A stretch of DNA of 38,859 bases from Deltaproteobacteria bacterium (GTDB lineage Bacteria; Myxococcota_A; Polyangia; Nannocystales; Nannocystaceae), in assembly GCA_022601155.1 (NCBI GenBank), contig JAHZJA010000848.1, positions 1 to 38,859 of the forward strand, in the 5' to 3' direction. Below are positions 1-1,443 of the stretch, in pieces. The notes beneath the pieces were generated by a model that had not been told where the DNA came from, did not search any database, and saw only the letters and a list, made by a program, of their open reading frames with translations. A program made the position numbers and the translations under genes. Position 1 is the first letter of the stretch. Each line of letters begins with the position of its first letter.

Positions 1-1443
1 CATCCCCGTCTCGGCCGAGCGCAGGCGGGCCACGGCCCGGATCTGGGCCCGAAACGTCGTCTCCCCAAACCAGCCGTAGTTGGCCGGATTGAGCAGGACG
101 TGGGCCCCCTGCTCGCGAAGCTCCCGGCAACGCTTGGCGAACGCGAGCTCGAAGTCCTCGGGGCGCTCGCGAAAGCGCAGCGCGATCTCGCGGTAGCTCG
201 GGTCGAACTTCAAGGCGAGGTCGGTGGTCAACATCATCGGCGCGTGCCGCTTGGAGGGGACGTGGGCGTCGGGAACCATGCTCGATGCCTTGCCGTCCTT
301 GGGCTTCCACTGCGTGGCGCCGCCTGGGCTCTGGGTCTGCTCCCACTCGAAGCCGAACAGGTTGTCGAGGAACTGCGTGCTCCACTCGGTCGGAGTCATG
401 GTCCAGGCACCCTCGAGCCCGCTGGTCACGGTGTCTTCCGCGTTGCCCTTGCCGCACTCGTTGTTCCAGCCCATGCCTTGCTCTGCCACGCCTTCGGCCG
501 CGGGCTCCGAGCCCACGCACTTCGATGGCTCGTGGGCGCCGTGGGCCTTGCCGAACGTGTGGCCGCCCGCGATCAGTGCGACGGTCTCCTCGTCGTTCAT
601 CGCCATGCGGCCGAACGTCTCGCGAATGTCCTTGGCGGCAGCCACGGGGTCGGGCTTGCCGTTGGGACCCTCCGGGTTGACGTAGATCAGCCCCATCTGC
701 ACGGCGCCGAGGGGTTTGTGCAGCGAGCCGCCCCCATGATGGCGCTGGTCGCCGAGCATCTGCTTCTCTGGGCCCCAGTACACCAGCTCGGGTGTCCACT
801 CGTCTTCACGTCCGCCCGCAAAGCCCAGCGTCTCGAAACCCCTGGACTCCATGGCGACGGTGCCGGTGAGGACCATGAGGTCGGCCCACGAGATCTTGTG
901 GCCGTACTTCTTCTTGACCGGCCACAGGAGTCGCCGAGCCTTGTCGAGGTTGGTGTTGTCGGGCCAGCTGTTGAGCGGCTCGAAGCGCTGCTGCCCTCCG
1001 TTGGCGCCTCCGCGTCCATCGGTCACGCGGTACGTCCCGGCGCTGTGCCACGCCATGCGGATGAACAACGGGCCGTAGTTGCCGTAGTCGGCAGGCCACC
1101 AGTCTTGCGAGGTGGTCAGAACCTGGCCGATGTCCTTGCGGACGGCATCGAGGTCGAGCGACGCGAACTCCTTGGCGTAGTCGAAGTGGTGGCCGAGCGG
1201 ATTGGACCGCGCCTCGTTGCGGCGCAGGGGGTCGAGGTTGAGCGACTCCGGCCACCACTGCGCGTTGGGTCTCGCTTGTTCGGGGCGCAGGTCGTGTTCG
1301 TGCCCGGAAGCACCGTCGCTCGATGCAACGACACCGGGGACGGCGGCACTGGTCGCGGGCGTTGCTGCACACGCGGTGAGCAGCGTCAGGGACATCGAAG
1401 CGGCGATCGACAGAAGCGGAGGGGCGGATGGCAACCGAGTCAT
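1..1443 (-). CDS. katG: Catalase-peroxidase KatG, lipoprotein form, 3' end outside window (possible chimera)
   Basis: Bifunctional haem catalase-peroxidase that removes hydrogen peroxide; 481 codons are visible. The N-terminus is a lipoprotein signal with lipobox LTAC (Cys ~25), so the enzyme is probably membrane-anchored outside the cytoplasm, unlike the usual cytoplasmic KatG. KatG hallmarks are clear: the distal haem motif [12 protein letters not shown] with the adduct Trp, the Tyr of [12 protein letters not shown], the Met region [20 protein letters not shown] with the proximal His in [11 protein letters not shown], and [18 protein letters not shown] near residue 400. KatG similarity stops at about residue 435 (near nt 135). 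The remaining ~42 residues, including [13 protein letters not shown] and ARLRSAETG, look like the C-terminal part of the Lnt nitrilase-fold domain. KatG is normally about 720-740 residues, so half the enzyme is missing or lies elsewhere. The ATG at 1443 is the first codon giving the signal peptide. Identity of the first 430 residues is certain; what follows is not. Confidence 0.93.

Follow-up and report, generated by a model that had tools for sequence, protein, structure and literature searches.

A catalase-peroxidase with an apparent Lnt-like extension is very probably an ordinary katG gene broken at a chimeric contig end

An open reading frame that begins as a catalase-peroxidase (KatG) and continues into residues resembling the acyltransferase Lnt raises the question of whether it encodes a new fusion protein or reflects two unrelated genes joined during assembly. 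The window, by which we mean the whole stretch of DNA analyzed, is the entire contig C1493 (C1493:1-38859; 38,859 bases) of a 10.8 Mb draft genome (1522 contigs; 72.28% complete; 3.98% contamination). At its left end lies a minus-strand ORF (1..1506; start ATG at 1443) that lacks a stop codon and is open at the contig end. In profile searches, the product read from ATG 1443 matches positions 13-391 of the NCBIfam catalase/peroxidase family TIGR00198 (E = 4.2e-175), and its residues 431-480 match positions 325-374 of the lnt family TIGR00546 (E = 4e-07). The first-pass annotation had described KatG turning in frame into Lnt-like residues near nt 135, and these successive matches bear it out, with the junction placed at nt 132/133. 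The KatG portion stops at residue 437 and the reading frame is unbroken across the junction, the Lnt-like frame being in register with KatG, as would be expected by chance in about one case in three. Because C1493 is a complete contig, the apparent fusion sits at a contig end, and, in so fragmented a draft, the Lnt-like part amounts to its terminal 132 bases. The features are as follows:

133..1443, minus strand: first 437 residues of an ordinary KatG that starts like a lipoprotein (LTAC); TIGR00198 positions 13-390, E = 1.3e-174; remainder on C142:2669-3668, minus strand.
133..142, minus strand: 10-base overlap GTTCGCCAAG between C1493 and the end of C142, from a script comparison; the following base differs.
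1..132, minus strand: Lnt-like tail of 44 residues, with no stop, running off the contig end; most probably chimeric and outside katG; TIGR00546 E = 5.4e-07.

When this genome was searched for KatG by profile, only two pieces were recovered, the one in the window (13-391) and another on contig C142, where the minus strand of C142:2672-3667 matches positions 388-715 of the 716 in TIGR00198; the search was repeated on the separate pieces. C142 is 3668 bases long, and its KatG piece reaches the very end of the contig and is open on the 5′ side. This piece begins with the bases GTTCGCCAAGGCGTGG (translation FAKAWFKLTHRDMGP); its first ten bases are identical to window positions 142-133, read on the minus strand, with a mismatch at the eleventh. 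Since the ten-base word occurs once more in the window, the ten bases by themselves prove little, and it is their position, exactly where the homology stops, that counts. The conserved AWxKLTHRDMGP that follows AFAK is absent from the window and present at the end of C142. Hence, the half of KatG that the first-pass annotation supposed to have been removed by an internal deletion is there, on another contig. Each piece alone scores below the 770.25-bit cut-off of TIGR00198, and the hallmark of the family, two peroxidase-like halves in about 720 residues, is found only when C1493 and C142 are taken together. Downstream of the real katG end, C142 also carries a 644-residue open frame cut by its other contig end (locus L096, 1-1932, minus strand), in which two CxxCH haem-binding-like motifs and beta-propeller-like sequence can be discerned by eye.

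KatG matches were found in 15 of the 39 genomes searched, the window's own genome (G000) included. The closest, for query residues 1-442, come from two relatives of the same family in which katG is intact, G005 (84% identity; open frame of 792 aa) and G018 (83%; 862 aa). At the DNA level, window nt 133-1443 is 82.7% identical to the intact gene of G005 and 81.7% identical to that of G018. The window from nt 133 to 1448 aligns with G005 8792-10104, and C142, up to its last base, with G005 7817-8801; in the stretch fetched from G018, the corresponding positions are 9752-8444 for the window piece and 10723-9743 for the C142 piece. The two contigs therefore tile an intact katG in both relatives, with the alignments overlapping by 10 bases in each. 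As the DNA homology to the katG genes of these relatives begins exactly at nt 133, the junction lies at nt 132/133; window nt 1-132 has no match at E <= 1e-5 in the G005 contig (12,918 bases) or in 19,001 bases of G018. In terms of the KatG HPI family (TIGR00198 / NF011635), the gene is typical in its profile coverage (13-391 in the window and 388-715 on C142) and in its 83-84% identity to the intact frames of relatives, and departs from it only in that the window gene is truncated in appearance, being split over two contigs.

We also examined what other KatG proteins display beyond the junction, using 91 loci, namely the 80 top-ranked among at least 584 candidates, nine from the search of relatives and two fetched stretches; the last duplicate the genes of loci L102 and L103, leaving 89 distinct places. 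AWxKLT follows the junction in 88 of the 89, which are all those readable across it; in the last, L075, the contig runs out just before that point. KatG homologues carrying the same tail, which would have spoken against a chimera, were thus not found among them. Queried against the 91 loci, the tail gave no match at E <= 1e-3; a threshold of E <= 10 brought up 14, led by L017 (E = 0.012), which contains an internal stop; another, L060 (E = 0.062), is seemingly a gene of Lnt type that lies upstream of the local katG by about 2.3 kb and is not fused to it. Many homologue alignments do reach query residue 442 and some residues 449-453, i.e., 5 to 16 residues into the tail. We rejected tail homology as the reason, since these homologues have AWxKLT past residue 437 and the overrun is thus an extension of the alignment.

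The tail itself (nt 1-132; 44 aa) matches TIGR00546 with E = 5.4e-07 and 29.1 bits, against a cut-off of 132.9, and CN_hydrolase with E = 0.019, below the cut-off of that profile. These E-values place the resemblance to Lnt beyond chance, though it rests on 44 residues. The likeness is confined to positions 333-374 of the 395 in TIGR00546; the whole ORF has nothing upstream of profile position 325 and, at 29.6 bits, stays far under the same cut-off of 132.9. LNT_N (PF20154), the N-terminal membrane domain, is absent among the Pfam matches of the ORF, and its only match in the genome (E = 2.9e-20) is on C226, where a 606-aa frame represents the complete Lnt of this organism; the tail is just 35% identical to it (E = 0.095). 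The best tail match in G001, the sole genome of the same genus listed, has 36% identity. Lnt uses Glu, Lys and Cys as catalytic residues. In an alignment of 12 Lnt-type proteins (L115, which had no match, was dropped), the tail begins downstream of an [IV]CxE segment present in all 12, which we take to hold the catalytic Cys; the alignment locates this Cys segment, with Glu and Lys not placed individually. The Glu-Lys-Cys set is not found in the tail, which, even if real, would carry no complete acyltransferase active site.

A donor for the tail was sought at several levels, in genome sets that overlap one another. In its own genome, no second copy was found; one of these searches scored 40 of 116 first-look candidates. 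In a set of 59 relatives' genomes that counts G000 among them, 47 match the tail at E <= 1, and the five strongest matches from the family show 36-41% identity with E-values of 0.003-0.006. In a sample of 377 genomes of the phylum, the tail has matches at E <= 0.001 in 30 genomes other than G000, the strongest of which reaches E = 3.9e-6 at 46% identity; matches from other families and classes of the phylum show 39-56% identity over 32-43 residues, none being near identity. G000 alone matches at E <= 1e-5 in 317 genomes of the class, while a different class of the phylum, represented by 90 genomes, gives two matches at that threshold, both already present in the phylum sample. Plasmids yielded no match at E <= 0.01. 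A near-identical lnt gene that could be the source was thus not found in the genomes searched, from genus to phylum, or in plasmids. A broad pattern search that included one tail peptide among its patterns is uninformative on the donor, because the best 80 of its at least 584 candidates all match the KatG part. Within the same genome, CN_hydrolase pieces lie at the ends of contigs C900 and C926. Neither can supply the remainder of the gene of the tail, as both already contain its region of the CN_hydrolase profile (142-235 in C900 and 88-238 in C926, vs 159-200 in the tail); the C926 piece does not look Lnt-like by eye. The C900 piece (L097, 69-335, plus strand) is a second Lnt-like fragment that starts at a contig end, in a 186-residue frame with ICYEDIF.

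Two contig ends that are complementary to the base within one gene, together with an unrelated 132-base piece, give the picture of a mis-extended contig end. We therefore consider it very probable (about 0.93) that the apparent KatG-Lnt fusion is an assembly artefact. The gene breaks at nt 132/133, with one half on each contig. The organism would have one ordinary full-length katG, broken in the draft into a 5′ part on C1493 and a 3′ part on C142, and at the break C1493 would have gained 132 bases from an lnt-like gene with no relation to katG. We infer that the extension came from a chimeric or foreign read, probably attached through a short stretch of common sequence; the tail is about as long as a short read, which is compatible with such an origin and proves nothing. 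The broken gene resumes on another contig at the same point, with the 10-base overlap, while the true source of the extra sequence was not recovered from the genomes and plasmids searched. This lack of a donor counts against an artefact, as does the frame that stays open and in register across the junction. De Bruijn graph contigs usually overlap by k-1; the 10-base overlap is shorter than that and leaves the exact assembler mechanism unexplained. The case resembles chimeric contigs in metagenome assemblies in that pieces of unrelated genes meet close to the end of a contig in a fragmented draft, and differs in that the break is deduced from contigs and homologues, not from reads.

Of the other readings, an unlikely one is that some cells of the population carry a true rearrangement, wherein katG was cut and its 5′ part came to abut an lnt-like gene, the two coexisting versions having broken the assembly. 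Such a polymorphism would likewise end C142 exactly at the breakpoint and would accommodate the open joined frame, but the tail is only 132 bases long and the joint is seen in none of the homologues examined. Further, as the tail is so unlike the Lnt of its own and the same-genus genome (35-36% identity), the rearrangement would require a foreign lnt fragment. The chance is slight that a subpopulation has indeed recombined such a fragment in frame onto the first half of the lipoprotein KatG, and the product would then probably be a dead peroxidase fragment. A fixed KatG-Lnt fusion protein or internal deletion, the alternative that the first-pass annotation had set beside a chimeric assembly, is highly improbable: it shares the frame open over the junction, but the same assembly contains the allegedly deleted half, which meets the junction with single-base precision, and the tail, lying downstream of the Lnt catalytic-Cys segment, shows no stop codon or gene end. 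The assembly option of that annotation stands, with C142 beginning at the junction. That C142 belongs to another strain or organism and was wrongly binned, the katG of the window being truly altered, might be entertained for a fragmented bin with 3.98% contamination, but is scarcely credible given that the halves are exactly complementary, sharing 10 bases where the gene breaks, and that the profile search of the bin turned up no KatG pieces but these two.

With a chimeric contig end as the preferred explanation, the KatG-Lnt joint should not be recorded as a new domain architecture; it cautions that a convincing in-frame “fusion” at the end of a draft contig may be explained by a missing half that starts elsewhere at the same base. 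The real feature is most probably a single, ordinary KatG whose N-terminus is of the lipoprotein type and whose gene lies divided between two contigs. This N-terminus (window 1443-1330, minus strand) displays a hydrophobic stretch and a lipobox-like LTAC, with LTAC and LSAC at the same place in the two closest relatives; among the starts of KatG in the relatives' loci L102, L103, L105 and L107 are LTAC, LSAC, LASC and LVAC. A crude motif scan flags 13 of the 89 KatG loci, some of which look false by eye, and three of the 89 are incomplete at the 5′ end. Such lipobox-like N-termini suggest an exported, lipid-anchored catalase-peroxidase. Beside katG is a 994-residue ORF (window 1819-4803, plus strand) with HELGHALGVDH, similar to a zinc metalloprotease motif, and DxDxDG-like stretches reminiscent of calcium-binding repeats. 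At the right end of the contig, too, an open frame is cut short (window 38260-38859, plus strand); it contains LVGGHETTANSLSW, which resembles the cytochrome P450 I-helix.
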